A DNA stretch of 64,000 nucleotides from Lacinutrix sp. Bg11-31. GTDB lineage: Bacteria > Bacteroidota > Bacteroidia > Flavobacteriales > Flavobacteriaceae. A model generated the notes under the pieces. That model ran no database searches. It was not told the DNA's origin and saw only the letters and a list, made by a program, of their open reading frames with translations. The stretch lies in NCBI RefSeq assembly GCF_002831665.1, contig NZ_CP025118.1, positions 3,534,001 to 3,598,000 on the forward strand. The letters run 5' to 3'. The position numbers and the translations under genes are program-made. Positions within the stretch are counted from its first letter, which is position 1. Every line of letters starts with the position of its first letter. Below, one piece after another: positions 5,478-24,163 of the stretch.

Positions 5478-5482
5478 AACTT

Positions 5483-6064: not shown

Positions 6065-6065
6065 T

Positions 6066-7115: not shown

Positions 7116-7444
7116 TGGAAGATGTTACTTTACACATTATAGATTGCGAAGGTATAAAACATAGTGTTTTAGCACCTACAGATATGGCAATGAATGTTAT
7201 GGAAGTTATTCGTTCTTACGAGTTAACTCCAGAAGGGACCATTGGTATTTGTGGCGGTATGGCAATGTGTGCTTCGTGCCAATGTTATGTTAATTCGGAT
7301 AACGAAATTAATGCAATGGAAGATGAAGAAGATGCTATGTTATCTGAAGCTTTTAATGTGAAAGATAACAGCAGATTAAGCTGTCAAATTCCTATTACAG
7401 ATGCTTTACATAATTTAGAAATAAAATTAGCTCCAGAAGTTTAA
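7115..7444 (+). CDS. [2Fe-2S] ferredoxin, adrenodoxin type
   Basis: A small electron carrier of 109 residues. Cluster cysteines are seen in CGGMAMCASC (C-x5-C-x2-C) with a fourth in RLSCQI, the order typical of adrenodoxin-like ferredoxins. The start overlaps the stop of the reductase gene, so the two should be made in fixed proportion. The pair most likely feeds the sulfite reductase of this operon, but use by other enzymes cannot be ruled out. Confidence 0.92.
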   Translation: MEDVTLHIIDCEGIKHSVLAPTDMAMNVMEVIRSYELTPEGTIGICGGMAMCASCQCYVNSDNEINAMEDEEDAMLSEAFNVKDNSRLSCQIPITDALHNLEIKLAPEV

Positions 7445-7455
7445 ATAATTATAAG

Positions 7456-8193: not shown

Positions 8194-8196
8194 AGT

Positions 8197-9075: not shown

Positions 9076-9112
9076 GCAATTATAAATTACACTCAATAAA
9101 TAATATTTAGTT

Positions 9113-9120
9113 TACTTTTG
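9113..9120 (+). promoter_or_regulatory. Bacteroidota -7 box before the PagL-like gene
   Basis: TACTTTTG matches the TAnnTTTG consensus of the Bacteroidota housekeeping sigma factor and lies 17 bp before the start at 9138. No clear TTG was seen at the right distance upstream, so this is a half-supported promoter. Confidence 0.5.
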
Positions 9121-9137
9121 CCATCTAACAAATTTAC

Positions 9138-10235
9138 TTGATGAGGTATATATTATACGCTTATATATTATTTTTTTCTATTAGTATTTCTGCTCAAGCA
9201 GACAAAAATTCATTTACAATAGATGCTAATTATTTCTATGGGAATATTACTGAACATAATACTGATATCTCACATTTAATTACTGGACATCCATCTGGAG
9301 TTATATTAAGTTATAACCAAAAAACGTTTGGAAAAAAAGCTTGGGAAAGCAGATTTAACTATCCAGATTATGGAGCATCTTTTGTATATCAAAAATTTAA
9401 TAATCAGTATTTAAGCGAAAACTATGGAGTCTTTGCACATTATAATTTCTACTTCTTTAAGAGAAATGTAATGTTTCGTATTGGGCAAGGTCTAGCGTAT
9501 AACACAACACCTTATGATAAAGTTAAAAACTTTAGAAACAATGCTTTTGGATCACATTTATTAAGTTCAACTTACTTAATGCTAAACTATAAAAAAGAAA
9601 ACATTTTCAAGAATTTTGGCTTACAAACAGGATTAACACTAATTCATTATTCTAACGGAAATGTAAAAGCACCAAACAGTTCTATTAACAGTATTGTTTT
9701 TAATATTGGAGCCAATTATATTTTTGATAACGAAAAATCAACAGAGTACATTCCATCTACAGAAGAGAAATATTTTAAAGAAAAAATAAAATATAATTTT
9801 GCTTTTAGAACAGGAGTAAACGAAAGCGATGTTATTAATACAGGACAATACGCTTTTTATGTGGTGTCTGCTTTTGCCGATAAACGCTTAAACCGAAAAA
9901 GTGCAATACAAGTAGGAACAGATGTATTTTTTTCTAACTTTTTAAAGAAACACATTCAATACAAAGCAGTAGCTTTCCCAGAAGATAATGTAAGTGGAGA
10001 CGAAGATTATAAACGTGTTGGAGTCTTTGTTGGTCACGAACTTTTTATTAATAAAACCTCATTTATAACGCAATTGGGTTACTATGTTTATTATCCTTTT
10101 GATTTCGAAGGTCGCGTGTATAATAGAATAGGTTTAAAACGCTATTTTGGAGAAAAAATCTATGGCGCATTAACCTTAAAGTCTCATGGAGCAAAAGCCG
10201 AAGCTGTAGAAATAGGAATTGGAATAAGATTATAA
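9138..10235 (+). CDS. Acyloxyacyl hydrolase, PagL-like lipid A deacylase
   Basis: A predicted outer-membrane beta-barrel enzyme of 365 residues with an N-terminal signal peptide ending near SISAQ. The stretch LIHYSNGNVKAPNSSIN matches the PagL His-Ser catalytic motif (HYSN), and alternating aromatic/hydrophobic strands fill the rest. PagL enzymes remove the 3-O-linked acyl chain from lipid A; the protein is longer than classic PagL (about 150-185 residues), as is usual for Bacteroidota versions. It is followed 1 bp later by a lipoprotein gene, so the two probably form a transcription unit. Confidence 0.8.
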   Translation: MMRYILYAYILFFSISISAQADKNSFTIDANYFYGNITEHNTDISHLITGHPSGVILSYNQKTFGKKAWESRFNYPDYGASFVYQKFNNQYLSENYGVFAHYNFYFFKRNVMFRIGQGLAYNTTPYDKVKNFRNNAFGSHLLSSTYLMLNYKKENIFKNFGLQTGLTLIHYSNGNVKAPNSSINSIVFNIGANYIFDNEKSTEYIPSTEEKYFKEKIKYNFAFRTGVNESDVINTGQYAFYVVSAFADKRLNRKSAIQVGTDVFFSNFLKKHIQYKAVAFPEDNVSGDEDYKRVGVFVGHELFINKTSFITQLGYYVYYPFDFEGRVYNRIGLKRYFGEKIYGALTLKSHGAKAEAVEIGIGIRL

Positions 10236-10236
10236 A

Positions 10237-10980
10237 ATGAAAAAAATAGCATACATATTTATAGTATTACTTTTTGCAAGTTGCGATAGTAAAAATGCAC
10301 CAGACTGTTTTAAAAATGCAGGAGATAGCATTGAAAAAGCATTTACAGTAGCACCATTTACCAAAATCACAGTCTTTAAAAATATAGAATTAATTGTTAC
10401 AGATGCACCAAGTCAAAGCGTAAAAGTCGAAACAGGAGAAAACCTAATGGATAAAATTTCGGTTATAGTAGAAAGTGGTAGATTGCTTATAAACGACAAT
10501 AATGGTTGCAATCTTACGCGAGATTACGGTTTAACCAAAGTATATATAAGTGCTCCAAATCTAACAGAAATTAGAAACAGTAGCCAATTTACAGTACGTA
10601 GTAATGGTACTTTAAATTATCCAAATTTAGATTTGTTAAGCGAAGACGATTCTGGCGATTTTTATAACAACGGTATTTTTAATCTAGAAGTAAATGCTAG
10701 TAATCTTTTTGTAGTAATTAATAATACAACTACAACTTATGTTTCTGGAACTACTACTAACTTACGCGTTAATCATGCTTCTGGAGATGGACGTTTTGAA
10801 GGCAGAAACCTTATTGCCGATAACGTAAATGTTTACCATCGTGGCACAAATAATATTATTGTTAACCCTCAACTTAAACTTACTGCTAATCTATTAAGTA
10901 CAGGAGATGTTATCTCTGTAACAACACCACCAGTTTTAGATGTTCAAGAACAGTTTGATGGTCGCGTAATTTTCGAGTAA
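10237..10980 (+). CDS. GIN-domain (DUF2807) lipoprotein
   Basis: A 247-residue lipoprotein with a lipobox at LLFASC near residue 15. The body has the right-handed repeat pattern of head GIN/DUF2807 proteins, with FKNIELIVTDAP and SGRLLINDNNG at the start of the domain. The function of the family is unknown; a surface adhesin-like or structural role has been guessed. It starts 1 bp after the PagL-like gene. Confidence 0.8.
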   Translation: MKKIAYIFIVLLFASCDSKNAPDCFKNAGDSIEKAFTVAPFTKITVFKNIELIVTDAPSQSVKVETGENLMDKISVIVESGRLLINDNNGCNLTRDYGLTKVYISAPNLTEIRNSSQFTVRSNGTLNYPNLDLLSEDDSGDFYNNGIFNLEVNASNLFVVINNTTTTYVSGTTTNLRVNHASGDGRFEGRNLIADNVNVYHRGTNNIIVNPQLKLTANLLSTGDVISVTTPPVLDVQEQFDGRVIFE

Positions 10981-11017
10981 CAAATCCCTTTTACGTGTTC
11001 AGTATTTAGTTTAATAT

Positions 11018-11120
11018 GGCGTTCCCTTTTTAAGCTAAAAAAGCTTAAAAACGTCAGGCTGTCCATTATATCTTTTTTTAAGAAAAATAAAAAAAGGATG
11101 CCATTTCCATCCTTAACGCG
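11018..11120. repeat. Intergenic palindromic repeat at the edge of the accessory island
   Basis: A compound inverted repeat: the outer arms GCGTT and AACGC (11020 and 11115) enclose a hairpin TTTTTAAGCT/AGCTTAAAAA and a second hairpin AAGGATG/CATCCTT. The layout resembles REP-like intergenic elements of flavobacteria, from memory. It marks the junction between the core gene at 10980 and the island. Confidence 0.5.
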
Positions 11121-11196
11121 CTTACTCGACTGTCTTACTCAAAATCTAAATTCTAGAAGAGCATTTTGTTTATTTTTACTGGTTATATGCTCATGT

Positions 11197-11438
11197 TAGG
11201 CAACGAAGTAAGATGGGAAACAAAAGGTCACGTAAAGTATTATTTATGTGTAGTTTTTTTAGCAAGTAAACATAATAAAGCTTGTCGCGAATTATATAAT
11301 AGAATAGTTGCAAAAGGAAAGCGTAAAAAATTAGCATTAATTGCAATCTGTAATAAGCTATTAAAACAAGTTTTTGCTATTGCTAAATCAGGATTAATAT
11401 ATGATGAAAGCTATAGAAGTGTTTTGGTGAAAAATTAA
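11197..11438 (+). pseudogene. IS110-family transposase remnant, C-terminal part
   Basis: About 80 residues match the C-terminal Tnp domain of IS110-type DEDD recombinases, for example RELYNRIVAKGKRKKLALIA. The catalytic N-terminal domain is missing, so it cannot work. The same C-terminal end, in diverged form, occurs on the minus strand at 36196-36333 and shares the downstream non-coding end with its AGTAC box. It differs from the intact IS110 gene at 13197. The upstream limit is uncertain. Its right end abuts an attC-like core at 11472. Confidence 0.8.
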
Positions 11439-11471
11439 TGGGATTTCACTTGTTTTTAGCCACAGTACTTT

Positions 11472-11481
11472 GTTGTAGCAC
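11472..11481. repeat. attC-like core site, remnant next to IS110 debris
   Basis: GTTGTAGCAC followed by GTTTTTATTTAT. The same 23-base string recurs at 11766-11788. It lies 12 bp downstream of the stop codon of the minus-strand gene at 11494. The rest of this attC-like site has been lost where the IS110 remnant begins. Confidence 0.55.
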
Positions 11482-11493
11482 GTTTTTATTTAT

Positions 11494-11739
11494 TCAAGCG
11501 TTTTTTGTTCTTTCTCTGATTAGCAGAAAACTCATAATTATACTTATTCCGATTACTAATAATCCGTATTTGAATAACCCTGTTAGAAAAAATGTCGGGA
11601 ATCCACCATAACGACCTTTTTCTGATATTTGAACGAGTTCAGATATGATTTTAGAATTCTCTAATATGAAATAAAAGACAATGCAGAATAAGCTAATTAT
11701 GTAAAGTTTTATGATTTTTAAATTTCTTTTATTCATCAC
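11494..11739 (-). CDS. Small membrane protein of a cassette
   Basis: An 81-residue protein of unknown function. Two hydrophobic segments (about residues 10-26 and 55-72) suggest two membrane helices with a charged loop between them. It lies between two attC-like core sites and starts 12 bp inside the upstream one. The family was not recognised. Confidence 0.55.
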   Translation of the reverse strand: MMNKRNLKIIKLYIISLFCIVFYFILENSKIISELVQISEKGRYGGFPTFFLTGLFKYGLLVIGISIIMSFLLIRERTKNA

Positions 11740-11750
11740 TTATTTCTCAA

Positions 11751-11775
11751 TATGCGACAAACATTGTTGTAGCAC
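11751..11775. repeat. Collapsed attC-like site
   Basis: TATGCGACAAAC-att-GTTGTAGCAC is a short palindrome made of two core ends without the usual hairpin-forming middle. GTTGTAGCAC (11766-11775) is the exact reverse complement of GTGCTACAAC at 12477-12486, at the other end of the next cassette. It may be a deletion product of a full site. Confidence 0.55.
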
Positions 11776-11783
11776 GTTTTTAT

Positions 11784-12071
11784 TTATGCTACACTCAAAA
11801 TATTTATCAATCCTCCAATGATTATTAAAATTACCATTGTCAAATAACTTCGTTTGTTAGATATTTTTCCGGTCATTAATTTTACTCCAAAGTATAAGTT
11901 TATAATACTTAATAAAATATTTAAAAACAGAACCCAATTAGGATACATAAAAGCAAAAAGAATATCTGTATAATGATATTTGTAATAAAGAGATATCATT
12001 TCATATATCCAATATACAGACAATACCATTTGAATTAAGCCTAAAACGATGTTAGTATTTTTCTTCAACAC
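11784..12071 (-). CDS. Small membrane protein, unknown function
   Basis: A 95-residue protein with three hydrophobic stretches (about residues 8-27, 38-62 and 75-92). It is the second gene of a cassette bounded by matching cores at 11766-11775 and 12477-12486, 6 bp downstream of the 128-residue gene. No family was recognised. Confidence 0.55.
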   Translation of the reverse strand: MLKKNTNIVLGLIQMVLSVYWIYEMISLYYKYHYTDILFAFMYPNWVLFLNILLSIINLYFGVKLMTGKISNKRSYLTMVILIIIGGLINILSVA

Positions 12072-12077
12072 AATGTT

Positions 12078-12464
12078 TTAATTTAATTTCTGATTTTCTA
12101 ATTCCGCAAACTTTTGTTTCTCAGTTGGCAAAATGTCCACTAAATCAAATCGGTTTTTATCCAACATATTGAAGTCAACCAGACTTAAATAAAGGTCAAC
12201 AACATTTCGATCAATCATTACTTTTCCGCCTCCAGCCCAATGTCGGTCAGTTCCGTTTTTCTTTATTCCAGAAACCCAATATTCGTCTCCACTTTCTATG
12301 TCGTAGTAATTTCCTGCGATTCCTTGTGCATTTGAGTTTTTAAGAGCCTTTCCATTAAAATAAACAGTTCTGCCAGATTTTGAAAATTCCGCCATTCCAA
12401 TCCACGCTGGTCCAGTATCACCAAATCCGCTTTTCAATTCTATATATTTTAATTCAGGTTTCAT
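12078..12464 (-). CDS. Conserved hypothetical protein (WIGMAEFSKSGRTVYFNG type)
   Basis: A soluble 128-residue protein. The stretches GPAWIGMAEFSKSGRTVYF, GNYYDIESGDEYWVSG and RHWAGGGKVMID are familiar from small bacterial hypothetical proteins, some of which I recall carrying the misleading name 1-deoxy-D-xylulose-5-phosphate synthase; nothing here resembles that much larger enzyme. Its start codon is about 20 bp downstream of the cassette core GTTGTAGCAC (read on the minus strand), which is a very short 5' leader, as in integron cassettes. Function unknown. Confidence 0.7.
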   Translation of the reverse strand: MKPELKYIELKSGFGDTGPAWIGMAEFSKSGRTVYFNGKALKNSNAQGIAGNYYDIESGDEYWVSGIKKNGTDRHWAGGGKVMIDRNVVDLYLSLVDFNMLDKNRFDLVDILPTEKQKFAELENQKLN

Positions 12465-12476
12465 TGTTTCTCAAAT

Positions 12477-12615
12477 GTGCTACAACGGTTTTGTATATGG
12501 AAAGTTGCGTGTTTGCATGCGAGGATTTTCCGAAGGAAAATCAGATGTAGCAAACGTGCAACGACCTTTTGATTTAGCTAAATATAGCAATTTTTTATAT
12601 ACGTTGTTGGCAGTA
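12477..12615 (-). repeat. attC-like site A (complete)
   Basis: A 139 bp imperfect palindrome. The ends are GTGCTACAAC (12477-12486) and GTTGGCAGTA (12606-12615). Inner arms GTTGCGTGTTTGC (12504-12516) and GCAAACGTGCAAC (12550-12562) pair except for two positions, and the tip is the perfect hairpin GATTTTCC-gaa-GGAAAATC (12524-12542). The arm ATAGCAAT..TTATATACG (12584-12603) is shared with sites B and C. The strand given is that of the cassette genes. Confidence 0.75.
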
Positions 12616-12630
12616 GGCTTAAACGCTAAA

Positions 12631-12969
12631 TTATGCAGTTCCGACGTAATCTCTATTCCAATGTAAAAACTTGTTATAGATTAAAATTCTTAAGTTTTCC
12701 AATTCAGAGTGTTCTATAACTAATTCTCCAACTGATTCCTTCATTTTTTTTAGTTGGGAATCCGTCAAATTTTCGTTCCATATAAGTTCGGTTCCGTATT
12801 TTATAATTCCGTTAATGTGTTTTTGAGATATTGCTTTTTCAAATTTAACCCAATCAGACTTTAATGATTCCGCGTGTCTTTTTTTTCGTTTTGATAACCA
12901 GAAATAGTACACTATCAGAAGTAATAATGGGAAAGAAAATGCAATAATGAGTATTATTCCGTTATTCAT
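12631..12969 (-). CDS. Single-helix membrane protein of a cassette
   Basis: A 112-residue protein starting MNNGIILIIAF, with one N-terminal membrane helix (about residues 4-22), a basic KRKKRH stretch and a soluble tail. The reading frame stays open upstream to 13137, but that part lies in the IS110 element, so the ATG at 12969 is the likely start; it is 25 bp inside the cassette core GTTGGCAGTA (12996-12987). The cassette is closed by the same core in reverse complement at 12606-12615. Function unknown. Confidence 0.6.
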   Translation of the reverse strand: MNNGIILIIAFSFPLLLLIVYYFWLSKRKKRHAESLKSDWVKFEKAISQKHINGIIKYGTELIWNENLTDSQLKKMKESVGELVIEHSELENLRILIYNKFLHWNRDYVGTA

Positions 12970-12986
12970 GTCGTTTTTTGAAAGCT

Positions 12987-13000
12987 TACTGCCAACGTGT
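12987..13000 (-). repeat. attC-like site B, left end (split by IS110)
   Basis: TACTGCCAACGTGT is the outer end of an attC-like site. Its first ten bases are the exact reverse complement of GTTGGCAGTA at 12606-12615. The remainder of the site resumes at 14228, after the IS110 element; both breakpoints carry ACGTGT. Confidence 0.7.
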
Positions 13001-13030
13001 TTCTTTAGTTTGTAATAAATATCTTTAGAT

Positions 13031-13160
13031 AGAAAAAGAGGAGAACTATAACGTGTTTTAGAATAACGTTCCCTTACACGTACGAGTCCTCTCTTTCTAT
13101 ACAGTTGCCAAGAACCATTTGGAATACCAGGAGTCAAAATCTCCCGATAAAGGAAGTAGT
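13031..13160 (+). ncRNA. Candidate IS110 bridge RNA
   Basis: It lies in the non-coding 5' end of the element, where IS110-group bridge RNAs are found. A stem TAGAAAAAGAGGA (13030-13042) with TCCTCTCTTTCTA (13087-13099) has one mismatch and encloses a loop containing AACGTGT (13050-13056) and TACACGT (13075-13081), matching the top strand and the reverse complement of the target. Next comes TTGGAATAC (13119-13127), identical to the element's right end (14221-14229), then a GGAG/CTCC hairpin and TAAAGGAA, near the reverse complement of the left end. This matches the two-loop target/donor guide design. Ends are approximate. Confidence 0.55.
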
Positions 13161-13196
13161 TAACGCAACATATTTATTCACTCTAATTGTAAAAAT

Positions 13197-14189
13197 ATGA
13201 AAAATTACAAAGAAGTCGTTGGAATCGATGTTTCAAAAAAAACAATAGATGCCTTTTGTTATCAAGCAGAAGTACATAAGGAGTTTATTAACGATGTAGT
13301 AGGTTATAAAAGTCTTTTAAAATGGGTTTCAAAGTATACCAATGAAATTGACGTTTTTTATTGTTTTGAGAATACAGGATATTACTCATTAAAATTAGCG
13401 CTTTATTTCGCTAGTCAATCTATAGTTTATGTAGAAGAAAGTCCTTTAAAAATAAAACGTTCATCGGGAATTGTAAAAGAAAAGACAGACAAGCTTGATG
13501 CGGCTTTAATAGCACGTTATGCTTGGCTTTATAGAGAAGAGTTGGAACCAAGTACAGTAAAAAGTATGTCTCATTTAGAGCTTGGAAGACTGTTAGCTTT
13601 ACGGGATCAATTAGTTAGAAATAATGCAGGTCTTAAAGGTACTTTAAAAGAAATGAAAATACTTTTATCTAGTCCAACCACAGATTCTGGTTGCATAAGC
13701 TTAAAACGCAGTATAGACTATTTATCTAAGCAAGTAAAATCAGTAGAGGATAGGATAAAAGAGATTATTTCTCAAGATGAATCGATGCAAAAAAATTATG
13801 AATTATTATCGAGTTTAAAAGGAGTAGGTTTAGTAGTTGCTAGTCAATTAATTTACCATACAGGAAACTTTACACGCTTTGCAAGTTGGCGTGCTTTTTC
13901 TAGTTATTGTGGAACAGCGCCATTCGAGCATCGTTCTGGAACCAGTATCTATAAGCGAAAACAATGTCATTATTTAGGAGACAGAAAAATGAAAAGCTTA
14001 TTAAGTATGGCAAGCGTTTCTGCAATACAACATGATAGTGAATTAAGACAATATTATAAGCGAAAAGTAGCAGAAGGAAAAGATAAAATGTTAGCCATAA
14101 ATAATGTTAGAAACAAACTAATTGCAAGAGCTTTTGCTGTTGTGAAAAGAGGAACACCTTATGTTGTTTTACAACAGCATGCAGCTTAA
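13197..14189 (+). CDS. IS110-family transposase (DEDD recombinase)
   Basis: Full-length 330-residue RNA-guided-type recombinase. The RuvC-like N-terminal domain carries the candidate DEDD residues D11 (VVGIDVS), E58 (FENTGYYS), D98 and D101 (KTDKLDA). A central helical linker follows, then the C-terminal Tnp domain with SSLKGVGLVVASQL and HRSGTSIYKRKQ, which should hold the catalytic serine. No frameshift is seen, so the gene could be active. It catalyses excision to a circle and insertion at a site set by the element's bridge RNA. Confidence 0.92.
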   Translation: MKNYKEVVGIDVSKKTIDAFCYQAEVHKEFINDVVGYKSLLKWVSKYTNEIDVFYCFENTGYYSLKLALYFASQSIVYVEESPLKIKRSSGIVKEKTDKLDAALIARYAWLYREELEPSTVKSMSHLELGRLLALRDQLVRNNAGLKGTLKEMKILLSSPTTDSGCISLKRSIDYLSKQVKSVEDRIKEIISQDESMQKNYELLSSLKGVGLVVASQLIYHTGNFTRFASWRAFSSYCGTAPFEHRSGTSIYKRKQCHYLGDRKMKSLLSMASVSAIQHDSELRQYYKRKVAEGKDKMLAINNVRNKLIARAFAVVKRGTPYVVLQQHAA

Positions 14190-14227
14190 AAAAAAATAGA
14201 ATATTTATTAGGAATTGATCTTGGAAT

Positions 14228-14348
14228 ACGTGTATGATTAGTTGCGTTGGCTAGATCTAAATTAGTAAAAGAAAACGAACCAGAGGAAATTCCAAAGGAA
14301 TTTCCAAGTAATCATTGCACTAGCAATGAATTATACACGTTGTTGTGC
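14228..14348 (-). repeat. attC-like site B, right part (split by IS110)
   Basis: This holds the remaining arm and tip of site B: ACGTGTATGATTAGTTGCGT, the hairpin GGAAATTCC-aaa-GGAATTTCC (14285-14305), and the arm TAGCAATGAATTATACACG (14321-14339) ending in core GTTGTGC (14342-14348). The decarboxylase-like gene stops 5 bp beyond the core. Confidence 0.7.
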
Positions 14349-14353
14349 TTTCG

Positions 14354-15628
14354 TTATTTGTTGTTATTGCCTAAAGAACCTAATCGTTCTCCGGTTAACT
14401 GATGTTTATAACCGTCATTTTTTTCTTTCTTTGGTGCATCCAAAATAAATTGTGCTTTCTCTTGGAATATCATAATAAAATCAGAACCTCCAAATAGAAA
14501 GTAACCTAACATATCCCCTTTAGAGACTGTACTTCCTACGTGTAAATTATCTTCGAAATTAACGGAAGATACTGGCCACATTCCTATTGGTAGAAGTGCA
14601 ACTAAACCAAATTCTTCAGTATCTAAAATCACACATCCGCGTGTCTCAATTGCTTGCCAAGCAACTGATGATGCATCAAATTTGTATCTTTTATTCTCAG
14701 GGTCCCACGTGGTATAACCACCTGAAACACTTTCGCCAGGAATAATTCGTATTTCTTTCACAATTCCACTCAGCGGAAAATGATATCGATGATAATCACC
14801 TACATCTAAAAATGAATGCGTAAATGTTCCGCTAGTAAATGAATTTGCATATTCACTTTCCTTTCCGATTAGGTTTTTCACATCGTATAAAGTCCCAGAT
14901 TTAACAACAACTCCTTCTTTTTCAACAATCATTGAATTGTCATCAATAGCCCAAATTCCTTGAGGTTGAGCATCTGCTGCTGATACTACTATCTTATTGT
15001 TATCTGGTTCAACTATAGGTCTTTGCTTAGGGGTTTTAAGGTTTCTTGCAAAGAATTGATTAAAAGTTTTCCAATTGGAAGGATCTTCATACCAATCATT
15101 TTGAAGACCAAAAATTCCATCTGCAAGAGCAATTTGGTAATAGTCGGCATTCCAAGAAGACTCCGAATCCATAAACTCGCCATATGTTTTATTGAAACTT
15201 GTTAACCATGACTTGTATGGTTCATGATACTGAAGTGAGTTATTGAAATAATCTTTTTCTTCAAGTGCTTCAAGAGGTTGATCATTTATAAAGAAAAAGT
15301 AGCACAAACTTTGATCGATTCTATCATAAAGTGAATTTGCATAATCAACTTCCAAGAATTGCCAAGGCATAACATTTTCTGTCCATGAGACAAATTGATA
15401 GTACTCTTCTAATGTTTGAGCAGGATTAGTTTGTTTATCTGGATTGATTTTTTTTGCCTGTTCTATTGAGGCTAAAAGCAACGATTTAATTTCAGGGTTT
15501 GAGTTTACAATGCTAATTAATTCTATAGTCTTAGAACTGTACTTTGAATAATTATGTTTGTTATTTTGTTTGCATGAGCAAAGTGTAATGAATAAAAGTG
15601 ATAATATTAATGAATAATACTTTTTCAT
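14354..15628 (-). CDS. Phosphatidylserine decarboxylase-like lipoprotein
   Basis: A 424-residue protein with a signal peptide and lipobox (ITLCSC, Cys18), so it should sit on a membrane outside the cytoplasm. The C-terminal half is PSD-like: FNQFFARNLK near 189-198, SAADAQPQG with candidate D219, DYHRYH at 278-283 and GGS at 380-382 in place of the LGST autocleavage motif, giving a possible D219-H283-S382 triad for pyruvoyl formation. An N-terminal domain of about 150 residues precedes it, as in the PSDC-containing family that includes amino-acid decarboxylases such as fungal PsiD. Substrate unknown: lipid or free amino acid. It forms a pair with the DUF6090 gene inside the cassette island. 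Confidence 0.75.
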   Translation of the reverse strand: MKKYYSLILSLLFITLCSCKQNNKHNYSKYSSKTIELISIVNSNPEIKSLLLASIEQAKKINPDKQTNPAQTLEEYYQFVSWTENVMPWQFLEVDYANSLYDRIDQSLCYFFFINDQPLEALEEKDYFNNSLQYHEPYKSWLTSFNKTYGEFMDSESSWNADYYQIALADGIFGLQNDWYEDPSNWKTFNQFFARNLKTPKQRPIVEPDNNKIVVSAADAQPQGIWAIDDNSMIVEKEGVVVKSGTLYDVKNLIGKESEYANSFTSGTFTHSFLDVGDYHRYHFPLSGIVKEIRIIPGESVSGGYTTWDPENKRYKFDASSVAWQAIETRGCVILDTEEFGLVALLPIGMWPVSSVNFEDNLHVGSTVSKGDMLGYFLFGGSDFIMIFQEKAQFILDAPKKEKNDGYKHQLTGERLGSLGNNNK

Positions 15629-15633
15629 AGGTT

Positions 15634-16377
15634 CTATTTTTCTAATTGTATAATAATTTCTTCAATTGCAATCGAGAGACTTGGATATAAACTTGCAACA
15701 TTTTCCAATTCCCACACATGATCAAAAAATACGTTTTCAGCCTCTAGATTAGACAGTATAACTCTATTGTCAGTCATTATTTTAGAGCCTCCTTCAACAC
15801 CTTTAACAATGCCAAAATTATCAGAATTACGAAGAGAAATTAATTTTTCCATTTTCGGCAATACGTTGCGATTTAGATTAATCGACATGTTTTTCTGGGT
15901 ATGTTCAAAATGTTCTAGTTGGCTTCCCCAAGCAAGTAGCATTTTTCTTAGTTCGGGATTGCTTACCAAATCCATTTTTCCATTATCATATATACTATTG
16001 AAGATATCTTGATTAGATTTCAACATAGGTCCCCAAAGGCCATCATTTATCAGTTTATTTAAGTAATCAATACCTAATGTATCAGTCTTTGTGCCAAATA
16101 GATTAATTAGTTTCACCAATTGACCCGTTGAATTATCTATTTGATTTTTGGTTTGTTTTAATTGAATTAGATTAAAATTAAATTCTTCTTTTAAACTAGT
16201 TAAGAGTAGTTTTTCGCTATCTCTACTTTTTTCTTTTTCATTCCAATTATTTATTGATAAAGCAATCAGAATTCCAATTACGACAAGTATAATTTCTCCT
16301 ATTGCATACTTAAAGTATTTCCCAGTTTTATTTTTTCCCATAAGGTCGTAGCGAATTTTCCGAAAGAATTTTATCAT
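15634..16377 (-). CDS. DUF6090 family membrane protein
   Basis: A 247-residue protein with the typical start MIKFFRKIRYDLMGKNKTG and one membrane helix (about residues 27-43, IILVVIGILIALSINNW), followed by a soluble helical domain. The family is common and often multi-copy in flavobacteria; its function is unknown. It is 5 bp upstream of the decarboxylase-like lipoprotein gene, so the two are probably co-transcribed. The IS3 element ends about 20 bp upstream and may have cut off or supplied the promoter. Confidence 0.85.
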   Translation of the reverse strand: MIKFFRKIRYDLMGKNKTGKYFKYAIGEIILVVIGILIALSINNWNEKEKSRDSEKLLLTSLKEEFNFNLIQLKQTKNQIDNSTGQLVKLINLFGTKTDTLGIDYLNKLINDGLWGPMLKSNQDIFNSIYDNGKMDLVSNPELRKMLLAWGSQLEHFEHTQKNMSINLNRNVLPKMEKLISLRNSDNFGIVKGVEGGSKIMTDNRVILSNLEAENVFFDHVWELENVASLYPSLSIAIEEIIIQLEK

Positions 16378-16435
16378 TGATTAGTGGTTTGTCATAATGT
16401 CTTGTCCTGAAATATGGCTACAGGTTAAAATTGAA

Positions 16436-17314
16436 TTAAGCTGATAATTTATATACCATATTAGGTGTTTTATAATCTAAAGATAAGTGTAATCTTATTT
16501 CGTTGTATAAATTAATTGCATTTTTTGCAGCACGTTTTGCGTGATCTACGCTATCAAAGGTTTGGTCTAGATAAAATTCATCTTTTAAAATACCATTTAC
16601 ACGTTCTGCCATTGCATTTTCGTAACAATGATTTTCTTCAGTCATACTAATATCTATTTTTTTTCTTCTAAGTATTTGTGTGTATACATTGCTACAGTAC
16701 TGTATTCCTCTATCTGAATGATGAATAAGTTGTTTAATGTCTTTAGCTTGATAGATTGCCTTATTAAGCGCTCTTACACAACCTTTTAGTTCTAGGCTGT
16801 CACTAAGATCATATCCAACTATTTTCCTGGAATGCATATCAGTTATTAACGCCAAGTAACAAAAGCCTTTTACGGTTCTAATGTAAGTTATATCACTCAC
16901 CCAAACTTGGTTGGACCTTGTAACTTCTAGGTCTTTTATAATGTTCTTATATTTATAAAAACGATGATAAGAGTTAGTGGTTATAGCACTGGTTTTCCTT
17001 CTAAGTGTTAGCATTTGGTGTCTTCTGAGAATATTAAATAGTGTGTCTCTACCAACTTTAATATTGGCTTTATTAAAATCTACATTTAATGATTTTACAA
17101 GTTTTCTTACGCCTTCTCTAGGAAGAGATTTGCGTCTTTTTCTGACTATATTAATAATCTGTTGTTCTAGTTTTAAACGCTTATCAGCTCTATTTTTATG
17201 CTTATAATAAGCATCACGTTTAAGCCCAAAACAATGGGTTATAGTCGTTAAAGAAGCAAATCCCTTAGACTTCTCTTTAGCTTTGATTAAGGCTTTATAC
17301 TTAGCTTTTTTTTT
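16436..17314 (-). CDS. IS3-family transposase OrfB (DDE catalytic part)
   Basis: It is made as the -1 frameshift extension of OrfA. From the slippage site the frame codes about 292 residues: an HTH_21-like region with KRRKSLPREGVRKLVKSL, then the rve integrase core with the DDE residues in VWVSDITYI, LIHHSDRGIQY and ENAMAERVNGILKDE. The internal ATG at 17014 is unlikely to be the true start because it would drop the N-terminal third. No stops interrupt the frame. Confidence 0.88.
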   Translation of the reverse strand, partial: KKKAKYKALIKAKEKSKGFASLTTITHCFGLKRDAYYKHKNRADKRLKLEQQIINIVRKRRKSLPREGVRKLVKSLNVDFNKANIKVGRDTLFNILRRHQMLTLRRKTSAITTNSYHRFYKYKNIIKDLEVTRSNQVWVSDITYIRTVKGFCYLALITDMHSRKIVGYDLSDSLELKGCVRALNKAIYQAKDIKQLIHHSDRGIQYCSNVYTQILRRKKIDISMTEENHCYENAMAERVNGILKDEFYLDQTFDSVDHAKRAAKNAINLYNEIRLHLSLDYKTPNMVYKLSA

Positions 17315-17658
17315 AGTTCAGCAATAGATTTATAACCAAGATCTTCAGCAGCTACTTCTAGATAAGATTCTTCTACCATAGCATCAAGGTCCTTTTTTAG
17401 TATTAGTTTCTTGAGCTGTTCAATTTCTTTTTGAAGTGCTTTAATTCTTGATATTTCGTCTTTAGTTTCCACTTTTACTCTGGTGTTCATTAAGTCTTTA
17501 CGATTGTATTTTTTGATCCACACATTTACTGTTGTAGGTGCAATAGAGTAGAGTTTACAAAGCTCGCTCTTTGTGTGTTTTCCGATAGTAAGCTCGGCTA
17601 AAATTTTTAATTTAAAAGGTTCGCTGTAACATCTAATTACTTTGTCATTTCTATACAT
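17287..17658 (-). CDS. IS3-family OrfA (DNA-binding helix-turn-helix)
   Basis: A 123-residue protein with an HTH domain (SEPFKLKILAELTIGKHTKS through TTVNVWIKKY) and a C-terminal leucine-zipper-like coiled coil (IKALQKEIEQLKKLILKKDLD). A run of nine A on the minus strand followed by GC (17314-17304) is a slippery site for -1 frameshifting, which would fuse OrfA to OrfB, as in other IS3 elements. Confidence 0.88.
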   Translation of the reverse strand: MYRNDKVIRCYSEPFKLKILAELTIGKHTKSELCKLYSIAPTTVNVWIKKYNRKDLMNTRVKVETKDEISRIKALQKEIEQLKKLILKKDLDAMVEESYLEVAAEDLGYKSIAELKKKLSIKP

Positions 17659-17703
17659 AATGTTTAAAATTATGTAGCCTTATTTCAGGACGGGTCAAAA
17701 TTG

Positions 17704-17840
17704 GTGCTAACGTTGTTGTATATGGTTTGTTGCGTGTTTCAAGCACCTAATTTAGTAAATATTTACCGACCAAGAAAGTCCGCGAGGACTTTCGTAAGTA
17801 GGCTAGAACTAGCAATAAATTATATACGGTGTTACCCAAC
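17704..17840 (-). repeat. attC-like site C (complete)
   Basis: A 137 bp imperfect palindrome. The left arm GTGCTAACGTTGTTGTATAT is followed by GGTTTGTTGCGTG, the tip is the perfect hairpin GAAAGTCC-gcga-GGACTTTC (17774-17793), and the right arm TAGCAATAAATTATATACG (17810-17828) runs into core GTTACCCAAC (17831-17840). The core contains the stop codon of the minus-strand gene at 17832 and is the exact reverse complement of GTTGGGTAAC at 18590-18599. Confidence 0.75.
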
Positions 17841-18362
17841 GTTTTTTATTCGGTTTCTATATTTCCATTTGAATTTCAATCGACTCCAAAATAAATTCCA
17901 TTCGTATATAATTCCACCCAATTCCCAATTCACGTCATATTTTTCGGTTTTATTATTCACGTAAGGTGGAATTCCGATTTTCATATGCAACATTGGGTCA
18001 TTGTCTTTTACGGTTTCATAAAATTCCGATTCGAGTGATGATTTTGGATAGTATTGAATTTCAATTATTGAGCTTTCCTTTTCGCTTTTATATATGTACA
18101 AGTTTATATCGTACAGATTTTCATAAATGTCTTTTAATTCCGCTGTTATTTGCTCAAGCGATTTGGATTTTTTCTTTTCGTTTGCTTTTTTACGTTCAAT
18201 TCGTTTGTCAAAAAAATTCCGCTCGTCATTTATTATTTCCGAAATTATGTAACTCGTATTGCCCGAAATTTTATTCCAACAGGAATTTCTCGCCATTTCT
18301 AATAGAGTAGAAGTAGCTTCTTTCAAATTCTGTTCGAGATTATTTTTTGTGATTTTTTTCAA
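17832..18362 (-). CDS. Hypothetical protein of a cassette
   Basis: A soluble, charged protein of 176 residues of no recognised family. It is rich in Lys and Glu, with a helical middle (FFDKRIERKKANEKKKSKSL) and a C-terminal part rich in aromatic residues (WELGGIIYEWNLFW). Its stop codon lies within the attC-like core of site C. It follows the 78-residue gene by 4 bp and was probably captured with it as one cassette. Confidence 0.6.
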   Translation of the reverse strand: MKKITKNNLEQNLKEATSTLLEMARNSCWNKISGNTSYIISEIINDERNFFDKRIERKKANEKKKSKSLEQITAELKDIYENLYDINLYIYKSEKESSIIEIQYYPKSSLESEFYETVKDNDPMLHMKIGIPPYVNNKTEKYDVNWELGGIIYEWNLFWSRLKFKWKYRNRIKNVG

Positions 18363-18366
18363 GAGT

Positions 18367-18603
18367 TTAATTACTACGTTTTATAAAAATCAGACACGAA
18401 ACAATTGTCAAAATTAGAATTCCGATTGTTCCATAAATTATTAAATTCAGCCACATTCCAACATTATGTATTCCCGAAGCAAATCTATTCAATAAAGGTT
18501 CAGATGAGAAAATCAGTATTGTTGTCAAAATGATAAATGACAATAGATGTATTCCTATAATTTTTCGTTTTCTCAATGTTTCTTCAAATGTTGGGTAACT
18601 CAT
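18367..18603 (-). CDS. Small membrane protein whose start codon overlaps a cassette core
   Basis: A 78-residue protein with two or three hydrophobic segments (about residues 16-32 and 45-72). It begins ATG AGT TAC CCA ACA; the core GTTACCCAAC (18599-18590) starts within the second codon, so the ATG itself lies just outside the inferred cassette. No other start codon is near. Function unknown. Confidence 0.55.
   Translation of the reverse strand: MSYPTFEETLRKRKIIGIHLLSFIILTTILIFSSEPLLNRFASGIHNVGMWLNLIIYGTIGILILTIVSCLIFIKRSN
18590..18599 (-). repeat. attC-like core at the head of the cassette array
   Basis: GTTGGGTAAC, the exact reverse complement of the core at 17831-17840. It is the outermost core seen on this side; no full attC-like palindrome was recognised between it and gldA, so this may be where the array begins. 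Confidence 0.55.
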
Positions 18604-18651
18604 TATATAATAACTTTTATTCCTGATATCCGGGAAATAAGTCGGGTTATG

Positions 18652-18667
18652 GTAACTTTATAGTTAC
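18652..18667. other. Palindrome between the cassette island and gldA
   Basis: GTAACTTTATAGTTAC is a hairpin with a 6 bp stem in the otherwise featureless AT-rich gap 18604-18750. Together with CATTATATAATAAC next to the core at 18590 it could be the worn remains of an attC- or attI-like site, but the match is weak. Confidence 0.3.
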
Positions 18668-18750
18668 TGTTATCTCGTAAAGATAATTTTTTTATTTCAG
18701 TATCTATAGTGTTACTTATTTGCTTTAGTTTAAAATGTAAACTTACTGTT

Positions 18751-19644
18751 TTAAGCCGTCAGTTCTCTAAACATGCTCTCTAAGCTCGCATTTTTTTGAT
18801 TTAGTTGAAGAATCTTCAACTCATTATCATGGGCAAAATCAAAAACATGAGAACGCATATCTTCTTTTGTAGAAAAGATAATTTCGTAAATAAAATCGTG
18901 TGTATTTTTAACGCTTTTTGCGTTAGGTAACTTTAATAAAAAAGCATCTTCAACTCTATAATCGAATTCAACAATAACGGTTTGCTCTTGTCCATCGCGA
19001 AGCTCGGTTAATTTTTTATTGGCAACAATTTCTCCTTTATTAATTATTATAACACGATCACACATGGCTTCCACTTCTTGCATAATGTGCGTAGATAGAA
19101 AAACAGTTTTCTCCTTACCAATAGATTTTATTAAATTCCTAATCTCTACTAATTGATTAGGATCTAAACCAGTAGTAGGTTCATCGAGTATTAAAACATC
19201 TGGATTATGTAATAAAGCATTTGCTAAACCAACACGTTGTCTATAACCTTTAGATAACTGGCTCATTTTTTTATGAGCCTCAGGAGCTAAACCTGTAAGT
19301 TCTATAACGTCTTCAATTCTAGATTTACTAACCTTATAAACATCTGCATTAAAGGCTAAGTATTCGCGAACGTATTGCTCTAAGTATAATGGATTGTGCT
19401 CTGGTAAGTAGCCAACACTTTGTTGCACTTGTTTAGCTTGAGATAAAATATCGTATCCATTTACAGCTGCTTCACCTTTGGTTGGGCTAATAAAAGTGGT
19501 TAATATTTTCATCATTGTAGACTTGCCTGCTCCATTTGGACCAAGAAACCCAACTATTTCTGGCTTTTTAATCTCAAAAGACACATTGTTAAGTGCTTTT
19601 TGCTCACCATAAACCTTCGTTATATTTTCAACCTTTATAGACAT
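18751..19644 (-). CDS. gldA: Gliding-motility ABC transporter ATP-binding protein GldA
   Basis: An ABC ATPase of about 297 residues. The Walker A GFLGPNGAGKST, signature LSKGYRQRVGLA, Walker B VLILDEPTTGLDPNQL and switch His in STHIMQEVEAM are all present. It closely fits GldA of Flavobacterium, which is needed for gliding together with GldF and GldG (not in this window). The frame is open to 19662, but the promoter elements at 19660-19688 cover that spot, so the start MSIKVEN at 19644 is preferred. It lies far from the gldKLMN cluster at 49093, as in other flavobacteria. Confidence 0.88.
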   Translation of the reverse strand: MSIKVENITKVYGEQKALNNVSFEIKKPEIVGFLGPNGAGKSTMMKILTTFISPTKGEAAVNGYDILSQAKQVQQSVGYLPEHNPLYLEQYVREYLAFNADVYKVSKSRIEDVIELTGLAPEAHKKMSQLSKGYRQRVGLANALLHNPDVLILDEPTTGLDPNQLVEIRNLIKSIGKEKTVFLSTHIMQEVEAMCDRVIIINKGEIVANKKLTELRDGQEQTVIVEFDYRVEDAFLLKLPNAKSVKNTHDFIYEIIFSTKEDMRSHVFDFAHDNELKILQLNQKNASLESMFRELTA

Positions 19645-19659
19645 CTTATATTCTTTCTT

Positions 19660-19688
19660 CAAAAATAAACATTCTGTAATTTAAACAA
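19660..19688 (-). promoter_or_regulatory. Promoter of gldA
   Basis: On the minus strand TTG (19688-19686), 18 bp, then TATTTTTG (19667-19660), a match to the TAnnTTTG box. Transcription would begin about 10 bp before the ATG at 19644, which argues against the longer frame start. Confidence 0.55.
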
Positions 19689-19747
19689 GACTTTGTTTAG
19701 AAATCTTTAAATCTTTAGCTAAAAGCTTAAAATACATGCTTTAGTAT

Positions 19748-19777
19748 TTTGATTTGTGAAATAATTATTTACTTTAG
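19748..19777 (+). promoter_or_regulatory. Promoter of the aromatic amino acid operon
   Basis: TTTG (19748-19751), 18 bp, TACTTTAG (19770-19777), one base from the TAnnTTTG consensus. It is placed about 35 bp before the leader peptide start at 19812. Confidence 0.5.
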
Positions 19778-19811
19778 CATTATAATTAATTTAGTGCTTT
19801 CGCAAATTATA

Positions 19812-19889
19812 ATGAAAACAATACAGAACACATATTTTAGCCGCTTCTATTTCTTTTTTAGCAAAAAGAACGAGACTGCGTATATGTAA
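19812..19889 (+). CDS. Phe/Tyr-rich leader peptide of the pheA operon
   Basis: A 25-codon frame, MKTIQNTYFSRFYFFFSKKN then ETAYM and a stop, holding five Phe and three Tyr, with eight aromatic residues in the last 18. It lies between a promoter-like sequence and a terminator-like hairpin, upstream of pheA. Stalling of the ribosome for lack of charged tRNA-Phe or tRNA-Tyr would change the fold downstream. It resembles leader peptides of amino-acid operons in design; I know of no described homologue. Confidence 0.75.
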   Translation: MKTIQNTYFSRFYFFFSKKNETAYM

Positions 19890-19946
19890 TTCTAACAAAC
19901 ATATATTTAAAACTAAGTCTCGATATAATTTATCGGGACTTTTTTT
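19872..19946 (+). promoter_or_regulatory. Transcription attenuator of the pheA operon
   Basis: The terminator is AGTCTCGATA (19916-19925), a 5-base loop, TATCGGGACT (19931-19940) and a run of seven T that includes the last stem base. The 5' half AGTCTC is also complementary to GAGACT at 19872-19877, inside the leader reading frame near its end. The two pairings exclude one another. A ribosome at the leader stop would cover GAGACT and leave the terminator free; a ribosome stalled earlier at the Phe/Tyr codons would allow GAGACT to block it. Confidence 0.75.
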
Positions 19947-19993
19947 ATATAATAATTTCAACTTAAGTTGGGATTTAAAAAAAGAAATAAAAT

Positions 19994-20821
19994 TTGATTA
20001 AAACAGTAGCTATACAAGGAATTAAAGGATCGTTTCACCACATCGTGTCTCAAGACTATTTTGGTGAACATACAGCTGTAAACGAGTGCTTGTCTTTCGA
20101 TGAAACTGTAGATGCCTTACTTTCTGGTAAAACCGAAGTAGCAATTATGGCTTTAGAGAACTCTATTGCTGGCTCAATTATACCAAATTATGCGTTGATA
20201 GATAATTATAATCTTCATATAGTTGGTGAGCATTATTTAGACATACAGCATAATTTAATGGCATTGCCAAACCAAAGTATCGAGGATATTAAAGAAGTGT
20301 ATTCGCACCCAATGGCATTATTGCAATGTAAAGCATTCTTTAAAAATTATCCACATATAAAGTTAGTAGAAGATAAAGATACTGCAGATGTTGCAAAACG
20401 AATTCAAGACAAAAAACTTAAAGGTGTTGCAGCAATAGCAAGTAGATTGGCTGCTTCAATATTCGAATTAGATATTTTAGCAGAAAGCATCCAAACCATT
20501 AAGCACAACGAAACACGTTTTGCAATTGTAAAGCAAAATAATTCTGAAATTAATAAAGCTGAAATTAATAAAGCGTCTATTAAATTCGAGCTCGATCACA
20601 AACGCGGAAGTTTAGCTGCAATTCTTAATGTTTTGAGTGACTGTAAACTAAACTTAACCAAAATACAATCCTTACCAAAAATTGAAACACCTTGGTTGTA
20701 TGCCTTTTTTGTAGATGTTACTTTCGATGATTATAAGGATTTTGATAAAGCTAAAGCAATACTAGAGATTATGGCAACACATTTAAAAGTGTTAGGCGAA
20801 TATAAAAACGCAAAAAAATAA
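19994..20821 (+). CDS. pheA: Prephenate dehydratase
   Basis: It makes phenylpyruvate from prephenate in phenylalanine synthesis. The 275-residue protein has the catalytic domain (GIKGSFHHIV, MALENSIAGSI and the ETRFAIV motif with catalytic Thr) and a C-terminal ACT domain (SIKFELDHKRGSLAAILNVL) for feedback by phenylalanine. There is no N-terminal chorismate mutase; that activity is fused to the DAHP synthase downstream. The start is a TTG at 19994; no ATG lies nearby in frame. It stops 1 base before the ATG of the aminotransferase gene. Confidence 0.93.
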   Translation: MIKTVAIQGIKGSFHHIVSQDYFGEHTAVNECLSFDETVDALLSGKTEVAIMALENSIAGSIIPNYALIDNYNLHIVGEHYLDIQHNLMALPNQSIEDIKEVYSHPMALLQCKAFFKNYPHIKLVEDKDTADVAKRIQDKKLKGVAAIASRLAASIFELDILAESIQTIKHNETRFAIVKQNNSEINKAEINKASIKFELDHKRGSLAAILNVLSDCKLNLTKIQSLPKIETPWLYAFFVDVTFDDYKDFDKAKAILEIMATHLKVLGEYKNAKK

Positions 20822-21960
20822 TGGAAGTTGCAAAAAGATTACATAGCGTTGAAGAGTACTACTTTTCTAAGAAATTAAAGGAAGTTAACTTTCTAATATC
20901 CCAAGGCAAGCCTATTATTAATTTAGGTATTGGAAGCCCAGATTTACAACCACCTGGAAAAGTAATTTCTGCAATTTCAGACAGTTTTAAAGACCCAAGA
21001 GCTCATAAATACCAAAGCTATCAAGGGTTGCCAGAGTTGCGCGAAGCAATTGCTGGTTTTTATAAAACGCATTTTCAAGTAAGTGTTAGTGCAGCAACAG
21101 AAGTGTTACCATTAATGGGAAGCAAGGAAGGTATTATGCATATCTCTATGGCTTTTTTAAACGAAGGCGATGCGGTTTTAATACCAAATCCAGGTTATCC
21201 AACATATACTTCGGTTACTAAACTATTACAAGCAGAGCCTATATTTTACAATTTAGACGAAGCCAATAACTGGTGTCCAAATATAGAAGAGCTTGAAAAG
21301 CAAGATTTAAGTAAAGTGAAGATTATGTGGTTAAATTATCCACATATGCCAACAGGAGCAAAAGCAACAAAAGAAATATTTAAAACCTTAATTGCATTTG
21401 CTAAAAAGCACGATATTTTATTGGTGAATGATAATCCATATAGTTTTATTTTAAATAAAGAACCTCTTAGTCTTTTAAGTATCGAAGGCTCAAAAGAAGT
21501 GTGTTTAGAATTAAACTCTTTAAGTAAAACATTTAACATGGCTGGCTGGAGAGTAGGGATGTTACTAGGTAATCACGAGTTGCTAAATGCAGTTTTAAAA
21601 GTAAAAAGCAACATGGATTCTGGTATGTTTTATGGTATACAAAAAGGAGCTGTAGAGGCTTTAAACTCATCAAAAATGTGGTTTGTAAGCTTAAACAGTA
21701 TCTACGAGAAACGTCGTAAACTCGTATGGGAATTAGCGACTAAACTAAATTGTTCTTTCGATGAGAATGCAACAGGATTATTTGTTTGGGCAAAATTGCC
21801 ACCATTTTTTAAATCAGAAGAATTTATAGACAAGCTATTAAAAGAACATAATATTTTTATAACACCAGGAACCATTTTTGGAAGTCAAGGTGAAGGTTAT
21901 GTGCGTTTTTCGTTATGCGCAACAATCGTAGAATTAGAAGAAGCAATTGCAAGAGTATGA
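20821..21960 (+). CDS. Class I PLP-dependent aminotransferase (aromatic operon)
   Basis: A 379-residue fold-type I aminotransferase. The PLP lysine is in LNSLSKTFNMAGWRVG, with NPGYPTY and NDNPY stretches typical of the aspartate aminotransferase family. Position between pheA and tyrA suggests it transaminates phenylpyruvate and hydroxyphenylpyruvate (or prephenate). The start shares one base with the pheA stop, and the end overlaps tyrA by ATGA. Confidence 0.9.
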   Translation: MEVAKRLHSVEEYYFSKKLKEVNFLISQGKPIINLGIGSPDLQPPGKVISAISDSFKDPRAHKYQSYQGLPELREAIAGFYKTHFQVSVSAATEVLPLMGSKEGIMHISMAFLNEGDAVLIPNPGYPTYTSVTKLLQAEPIFYNLDEANNWCPNIEELEKQDLSKVKIMWLNYPHMPTGAKATKEIFKTLIAFAKKHDILLVNDNPYSFILNKEPLSLLSIEGSKEVCLELNSLSKTFNMAGWRVGMLLGNHELLNAVLKVKSNMDSGMFYGIQKGAVEALNSSKMWFVSLNSIYEKRRKLVWELATKLNCSFDENATGLFVWAKLPPFFKSEEFIDKLLKEHNIFITPGTIFGSQGEGYVRFSLCATIVELEEAIARV

Positions 21961-22811: not shown

Positions 22812-22887
22812 CATCAATTTCTTGTAAGGTTACTGTACTAAACTCGTTTTAGTAGTTAGCCTTATAAGTACAATAAAAAGTAGGATT

Positions 22888-23970: not shown

Positions 23971-24064
23971 AGCTTATTTTGAATAATATCTATTTGTTAT
24001 GTTTAGCGTGTCGAAATGCGATCTAACCATAGTAAAAAAATATTCTCGACGACATTTATACCAT

Positions 24065-24100: not shown

Positions 24101-24163
24101 AATTTTCACTCACCCAAAAGCTGCGTTCACTCATTGTCGATTTTATAGAAGTTGAATTAAATA

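Follow-up and report, generated by a model that had tools for sequence, protein, structure and literature searches.

An outlying cluster of attC-like sites in Lacinutrix sp. Bg11-31 and a candidate integron system with a non-IntI recombinase

Small genes separated by long imperfect palindromes, with no integrase beside them, raise the question of whether they are integron cassettes and, if so, what moves them. Such a locus lies in the window analysed here, a stretch of 64,000 nucleotides on the 3.665-Mb chromosome of Lacinutrix sp. Bg11-31 (genome G000; G000:C1:3534001-3598000, numbered below as 1..64,000). An earlier note, made from the letters of the window, had read the locus as an integron-like cassette array with attC-like sites and no integrase in view. 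Taken as a whole, the evidence is best explained if the cassettes in the window are an outlying cluster that belongs to an integron system with a non-IntI recombinase, a reading that we regard as very probable.

To describe the cluster, we examined its palindromes and cores. The three long imperfect palindromes were present where the earlier note had placed them, and the core pairs that it had named were exact reverse complements: 11766-11775 (GTTGTAGCAC) with 12477-12486 (GTGCTACAAC), 12606-12615 (GTTGGCAGTA) with 12987-12996 (TACTGCCAAC), and 17831-17840 (GTTACCCAAC) with 18590-18599 (GTTGGGTAAC). The polarity that it had given to the cassettes had to be reversed. Transcription units and cassettes alike lie on the minus strand, which puts the head core of each cassette at the higher coordinates and the attC that belongs to it at the lower; from high to low coordinate each unit runs from head core through gene(s), R'' core and site body to the next head core. 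The left arm said to be common to the palindromes occurred far above chance, with three matches in the window at up to three mismatches (0.13 expected; 0/100 shuffles reached three), one of which belongs to a fourth site near 36.4 kb. The right arm gave three perfect matches in the window and a weak signal at up to three mismatches (10 matches, 5.1 expected, 2/100 shuffles); over the whole genome the same pattern at that tolerance gave 54+20 matches versus 6+4 for a reversed control. The three window sites folded better than shuffled sequences on all six strands (z -2.3 to -4.9).

We searched the same genome for more copies with a dedicated site model (R1, built from 36 sites; threshold E<=0.01), as the earlier note had proposed, and found 78 sites. 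Array A, at 149-183 kb, contained 28 of them and a small array at 2.54 Mb contained five; elsewhere sites were single or few. At the head of array A lies a gene for a 376-aa tyrosine recombinase (integrase A, 184.8-185.9 kb), and at the head of the small array lies a second one (integrase B, 2.539-2.540 Mb), both in the same direction as the cassette genes. The description as an array without integrase thus held for the window, since the seven tyrosine recombinase matches of the genome all fall outside it, but not for the genome, where two tyrosine recombinases are associated with arrays. The window holds a detached, outlying cluster, and fuller arrays are present in the same chromosome. A 413-aa recombinase gene (L033 12980-14221) and a transfer-messenger RNA gene (tmRNA; 14470-14864) adjoin the head of the main array. 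This recombinase was considered as the array integrase and rejected: it is of the arm-binding type, has a different SAM-like domain and lies on the far side of integrase A.

We investigated the relation between cores in the arrays of seven genomes, which contained 401 sites, 397 with AAC as expected and 363 with GTT. Sites lacking AAC or GTT were left out, as were gaps shorter than 100 or longer than 2500 bases, and 324 cassettes remained. The two cores of a cassette paired as complements across 8 nt or more in 271 of them, compared with ~3% for random pairs, and across 10 nt in 184. In array A the mean run between own cores was 8.1, compared with 3.9 for other pairs (0/2001 permutations). The R'/R'' relation that had been claimed for the paired cores was found well beyond the window.

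To examine cassette movement, 300 complete units were compared, and a pair was kept if 80% or more of its letters agreed across no less than 80% of the length, which gave 268 pairs. Both neighbours differed in 236 of these pairs; among the 236, the downstream site was more alike than the upstream one in 223 and the own head was the same in 219. In the 114 pairs that were at least 95% alike, the first 12 bases after the head GTT had an identity of 0.99-1.00, and positions -2 to -6 were near background. At the far end it was mostly >=0.96 up to CGTT, and background began at the fourth base of the next head. Because CGTT is common to the units compared, the exchange border is resolved only to four bases. 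Cassettes common to different species were also found (99.8% alike between G000 and G005, 97.3% between G004 and G005), and identical cassettes occupied different places within one array. Movement borders at GTT cores, a check set beforehand, were thus found in the arrays of this and related genomes rather than in the window's own cassettes, and the same arrays bore out the reading of the repeats as attC-like sites. On these comparisons, a cassette is a gene with its downstream attC-like site, moving as a unit with its border at CGTT. Among related cassettes, a base six positions upstream of GTT also varied; in the pairs printed, this came from a single recurring family in arrays of G004 (L128-L131, L144), the copies of which had identical gene parts.

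We next turn to the recombinase. From 34 integrase neighbourhoods 29 were used; four partial matches (L171, L172, L174, L175) and an Xer row (L176), none with sites, were left out. Sites were present at 19 of the 29 loci, and all of them (97/97) lay on one side and pointed away from the integrase, which read in the same direction as the cassettes at 12 loci and divergently at seven. By eye, 10 of the 18 printed same-direction loci showed an inverted dyad, after which come GTT and the first cassette; the seven divergent loci were left uncounted. This dyad beside the integrase is a putative attI. R235, K260, H324, R327, H350 and Y359, the residues expected to act in catalysis, were invariant in 24 rows, and the open frame of integrase A contains all the residues invariant in those rows.

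The spacing from box I to HxxR was 93 residues in the three new rows in which the motif search worked, compared with 135 in IntI and 100 in Xer. The IntI-specific insert of ~42 residues was absent, appearing as an alignment gap in all new rows printed and against the IntI model too. Five integrases scored 182-211 bits with TIGR02249, below its cut-off of 265, compared with 498 for a true IntI from the phylum. Their best family match was NF040815, with four of the five over the cut-off of 220; this family bears the NCBI name 'site-specific tyrosine recombinase/integron integrase', which many database relatives already carry. In a careful, unrooted tree of 52 rows (29 new, 15 IntI, 8 Xer; Variovorax left out for its long branch), each group lay on one side of a branch, with support of 96/93 for the new rows, 100/100 for IntI and 100/99 for Xer. 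A quick tree with one more row gave 89 for the new rows and 100 for IntI. The AlphaFold model (predicted local distance difference test, 85) had IntI4 as its nearest fold (2A3V, E 4.8e-18), followed by XerA. Some of the integrases are of a long type with an extra N-terminal domain. The insert is not fully conserved in one integron-like subgroup, according to the available part of PMC8138268. Judged by the insert, the score and the clade, the integrase is not an IntI and forms a clade of its own outside IntI.

Site anatomy was examined for what could set the strand. Of 54 distinct sites, 52 were 137-141 nt long. The R box consists of GTT and seven variable bases and is followed by a fixed base, which at the cassette head was A in 323 of 324 cases; after it come spacers of 6 nt and 3 nt and then a 16-nt L stem. 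These sites share with classical attC the length of about 57-142 nt and the R and L boxes with an unpaired spacer, as given in the available part of PMC2727003. They depart from the classical R' of GTTRRRY, with a purine at position 4 in 316 of 324 cassettes and at position 5 in only 126. Covariation in the L stem was 0.227 versus 0.074 in shuffles (0/500), with 93.4% of cells paired, a count that leans towards itself as the L-box structure was drawn by hand beforehand. Two L-stem positions were A.C on the gene strand in 36/36 and 35/36 aligned sites. In the larger set, A.C (G.T on the bottom strand) occurred at L-stem position 7 in 337 of 361 sites and at position 12 in 285, and the base after the R box was A.C in all 184 cassettes with a 10-nt core match. 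A.C on the gene strand means G.T on the other strand, and stability corresponds: when 270 sites were modelled as in a circle, the bottom strand folded better in 267 (mean -25.4 versus -21.5 kcal/mol), and when they were modelled as linear it did so in 256 of 270. Of the single-strand folding with extrahelical bases that the earlier note had expected, the folding was predicted by computation, with the bottom strand favoured, but extrahelical bases were not found, since no single unpaired base was seen in the L stems, whose two arms are of 16 nt each. In classical attC, extrahelical bases direct strand choice, again according to the available part of PMC2727003.

These results suggest the following mechanism. 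A cassette consists of a GTT-N7 head, a gene and, downstream, an attC-like site of ~139 nt that belongs to it, the R'' of which (N7'-AAC) is complementary to the cassette's own head. Cleavage by the recombinase would take place at the GTT triplet, on the bottom strand of attC in its folded form, and cassettes would be excised as circles and inserted at the double-stranded attI-like dyad beside the integrase gene. The strand would be chosen by fixed G.T pairs and the asymmetric 6/3-nt spacer rather than by extrahelical bases. The window cluster would owe its place either to a rearrangement or to cassettes inserted elsewhere than at attI; damage from site-targeting IS110 elements and from IS3 followed. 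With the array-head position, the cassette movement and the R'/R'' relation all found, the predicted system works like an integron. With rather less confidence than in the reading of the window, we lean towards a wider proposal: a family-wide integron of the Flavobacteriaceae, with an integrase lineage that never had or has lost the IntI domain and with the strand set by G.T wobble and the asymmetric spacer.

We investigated the distribution of the sites among genomes. Sites were found in 123 of 149 genomes of the same family, Flavobacteriaceae, corresponding to 122 of 148 genera. Another draw gave sites in 12/12 same-genus, 11/12 same-family and 2/15 same-order relatives, several of which had at least 82 sites each. 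A draw from the class had sites in 19 of 295 genomes, four of them from Flavobacteriaceae with the Lacinutrix genome included, and under stricter filters at least five same-family genomes of this draw were without sites. One genome (G008) contained at least 121 sites in stretches between 822 kb and 1.0 Mb. A distant blastn search of 72,556 plasmid records with one site as query found no site. A plasmid of Persicobacter (L209), outside Flavobacteriaceae, nevertheless encodes a 392-aa protein related to the integrase. An attI-like dyad is visible there by eye, and the plasmid also has a first GTT head and a single weak site (E 4.8e-6).

With one site as query, six phage records matched, representing three phages of Winogradskyella, Polaribacter and Cellulophaga. 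In P12002L (L213), P12002S (L212) and Peternella_1 (L211), sites, halves or short versions were seen between small phage genes. In the Polaribacter phage P12002L the profile supports one site of this type, at L213:9117-9252 (E 3e-7). Two short sites flank a methyltransferase gene (gp54) of this phage, and one of the two resembles the type by eye. In the first short site the minus strand was more stable (-6.9 versus -3.3); in the second the strands were about equal. In the available part of PMC9892861, one P12002L attC was recombined by IntI1 through its bottom strand and none through its top strand. From their place beside gp54, we infer that the short sites are the attC of that assay. That part of the paper makes no tie to a flavobacterial integron or to a non-IntI integrase.

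Several observations weigh against the integron reading with a non-IntI recombinase. No recombination was observed. The link between integrase and array is positional, and 10 of the 29 integrase loci were without sites; eight of these had less than 2.4 kb of contig left on the presumed array side. L163, flanked by 9 kb in each direction, is a genuine miss for the site profile, and L158 is perhaps another. In integrase B the homology is broken by a stop at its upstream end, and the gene may be decayed. The window cluster has no adjoining integrase, and no attI-like dyad was noted there. RNAalifold alone on all 36 sites gave three pairs only, probably because classes of site bodies were mixed. 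The R1 model built on this result amounts to a sequence profile, and the L-box structure was supplied by hand. In the movement comparison, some L-stem positions upstream of the head were above background (for example, 0.71 versus 0.40 at -9), the far end showed dips (0.57 at -6, 0.74 at -23, 0.89 at -2 and -17), and the cassette pairs are not independent because families recur. In P12002L, the profile found one short site weakly (E 0.05, one half) and did not find the other.

The alternative that survives best is a dead relic, in which cassette movement belongs to the past, the system has ceased to be active in this genome, and spread is by homologous recombination between site bodies. The site bodies are alike enough for such recombination, and the IS110 elements in several sites, the composite units in the window and the possibly broken integrase B would all fit. 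Homologous recombination would not place the borders at CGTT, and the open frame of integrase A, with its invariant residues, and the identical cassettes at different places of an array argue against a relic. We consider the relic unlikely.

A second alternative is a canonical integron, in which an ordinary IntI, since lost or located elsewhere, moves the cassettes and the recombinases beside the arrays are unrelated Xer-like proteins. The R'/R'' rule, the GTT border and the bottom-strand preference are the same as in IntI systems, and IntI1 reportedly recombines an attC of the Polaribacter phage that carries this site type, the available part of PMC9892861 being the source. With at most seven candidates per genome scored, true IntI was found in at least 84 of 296 genomes of a phylum draw, and in one genome of another family (G075) a single weak site and a true IntI lie on different contigs. 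Against this, no IntI match passed the cut-off in the Lacinutrix genome, the only same-family genome with an IntI match among the matches listed for the phylum draw was G126, below the cut-off, and a non-IntI recombinase stands at the array head in 19 loci with fixed polarity. We consider the canonical integron very unlikely. The weakest alternative, that the sites are palindromic mobile repeats, such as miniature inverted-repeat transposable elements (MITEs) or IS200/IS605-type repeats, or terminators that merely flank small genes, fits their palindromic form, dispersal, length of about 140 bp and place between small genes, but a MITE would show constant ends and a target duplication, and the own complementary core pairs (271/324), the joint movement of gene and site and the CGTT border led us to drop it as scarcely credible.

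We annotated the cluster along the minus strand from its high-coordinate end. Cassette W1 (17832..18589), headed by an R'-type core that reads GTTACCCAAC on the minus strand (18590..18599; exact reverse complement at 17831-17840), contains two small genes (78-aa and 176-aa frames) of unassigned function and without a Pfam match. The 78-aa frame is open from 18603, and its start is probably inside the cassette. W1's own attC-like site 1 (17702..17840; R'' at 17840-17831, the next unit's R' at 17711-17702) is predicted by the site model (121.2 bits) and by folding. In the stretch between this site and site 2 (14228-14351), the cores match over 3 nt only, and this unit, W2, is composite. It contains two frames of IS3-like transposase genes within the array (16436..17658; rve domain in the frame 16436-17014), a DUF6090 gene identified by Pfam (15634..16377) and a phosphatidylserine-decarboxylase-like gene (14354..15628; PF02666, 131.8 bits).

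The larger part of attC-like site 2 lies at 14228..14351 (R'' at 14351-14342; 65.7 bits and folding), and its R' core at 12987..12996, GTTGGCAGTA, is the head of cassette W3 and the exact reverse complement of 12606-12615. W3 contains one gene of 112 aa (12631..12969) and is followed by its own attC-like site 3 (12477..12615; R'' at 12615-12606, W4's R' at 12486-12477; 131.9 bits and folding). Cassette W4 contains genes of 128 aa (12078..12464) and 95 aa (11784..12071); after a Pfam scan of the open reading frames, the W3 and W4 genes are unassigned in function. The W4 R'' core (11766..11775, GTGCTACAAC on the minus strand) is an exact core match with its site body missing, and a second exact copy in the same direction lies at 11472..11481; no site body adjoins either. 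Between the two copies lies an 81-aa gene (11494..11739), by eye a relative of an 83-aa gene in two identical main-array cassettes (L033 908-1159 and 6240-6491). The solitary attC-like site (36320..36458; G000:C1:3570320-3570458; 79.4 bits) is on the plus strand, opposite to the cluster. Its flank at 36194-36333 was 85% like 11335-11474 in inverted orientation. A Flavo-1 RNA (11048-11126, minus strand, 55.6 bits) lies close to the cluster.

Insertion elements were found at several sites. Site 2 (12987-12996 + 14228-14351) is split within its R-L spacer by an IS110-family element on the plus strand (12997..14227, ends approximate; transposase at 13197-14189), identified from aligned copies and PF01548/PF02371. 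Seven near full-length IS110-family copies, the window's among them, adjoin site sequence, and the copies in the window, L032, L034 and L133 are placed between the R box and the L stem. In five other sites (L031 near 14476, L035 near 3290, L036, L037 and L050), CTTAAGAC or CTTAAGCC stands in place of R''. Three of the five have the same 150 nt upstream, apparently one end of an inserted element. The IS1111-attC group consists of IS110-superfamily elements that insert at a fixed place in attC. The elements found here are like that group, at the level of the superfamily, in their fixed insertion place in attC-like sites; unlike it, they occur in another host and another site family and have a different element sequence.

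The strands of the 78 sites in the Lacinutrix genome form two opposite arcs, about 2.9-0.71 Mb on the minus strand and 0.9-2.62 Mb on the plus strand, with two exceptions and with borders set post hoc. The pattern looks as if the direction of replication had set it, but neither border coincides with dnaA (1.62 Mb), and local GC skew was uninformative.

To examine the cassette cargo, 123 proteins were chosen from 179 non-redundant ones (207 before redundancy removal). The longest frame was on the gene strand in 233 of 297 cassettes. Among the 123 proteins, 46 Pfam families were matched, none in more than two members, including TIR, SEFIR, ParE and AAA. The PADLOC matches included DRT reverse transcriptases and OLD/Gabija-like ATPases. 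The cargo of Vibrio superintegrons resembles this cargo.

The predicted system was compared with known ones. Like the sedentary chromosomal IntI superintegrons of the Vibrio type, it has an integrase at the array head, long arrays in one direction made of genes with a 3' attC, AAC/GTT triplets, complementary R boxes of ~10 nt and a favoured bottom strand, and most of its cassettes are of genes without known function, with some for defence. Unlike them, its recombinase lies outside the IntI clade and lacks the IntI insert, its L stem lacks extrahelical bases, and its integrase runs in the cassettes' direction at 12 of 19 loci. The window by itself, with three sites at 12-18 kb, their cassettes and no integrase nearby, is like a cluster of attC sites lacking an integron integrase (CALIN), but integrase-bearing arrays are present in the same chromosome and the sites deviate from the RRRY rule of R boxes. 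The XerA-like simple recombinases of NF040815 are the best family match and share the catalytic core without the insert; the name is generic, and the integrases here, in contrast, stand at cassette arrays and include the long type. Archaeal XerA resolves chromosome dimers.

Searches of the open literature, subscription papers and preprints aside, brought up no account of an integron in flavobacteria whose integrase is not an IntI. According to the available part of PMC9668308, integron surveys recognise IntI by its insert, so that surveys based on IntI would miss the system. In the available part of the IntegronFinder 2.0 paper (PMC9024848), one complete integron is named in Bacteroidetes proper, that of Salinibacter.

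If the non-IntI reading is true, the domain held to define integron integrases would be dispensable, and integrons would have arisen twice or would predate that domain. Whether the IntI insert and extrahelical bases are needed becomes a testable question. Flavobacteriaceae are abundant in the sea. If the system is confirmed, this family would possess a large gene-capture system, with some defence genes among its cassettes and with sites in some of its phages.

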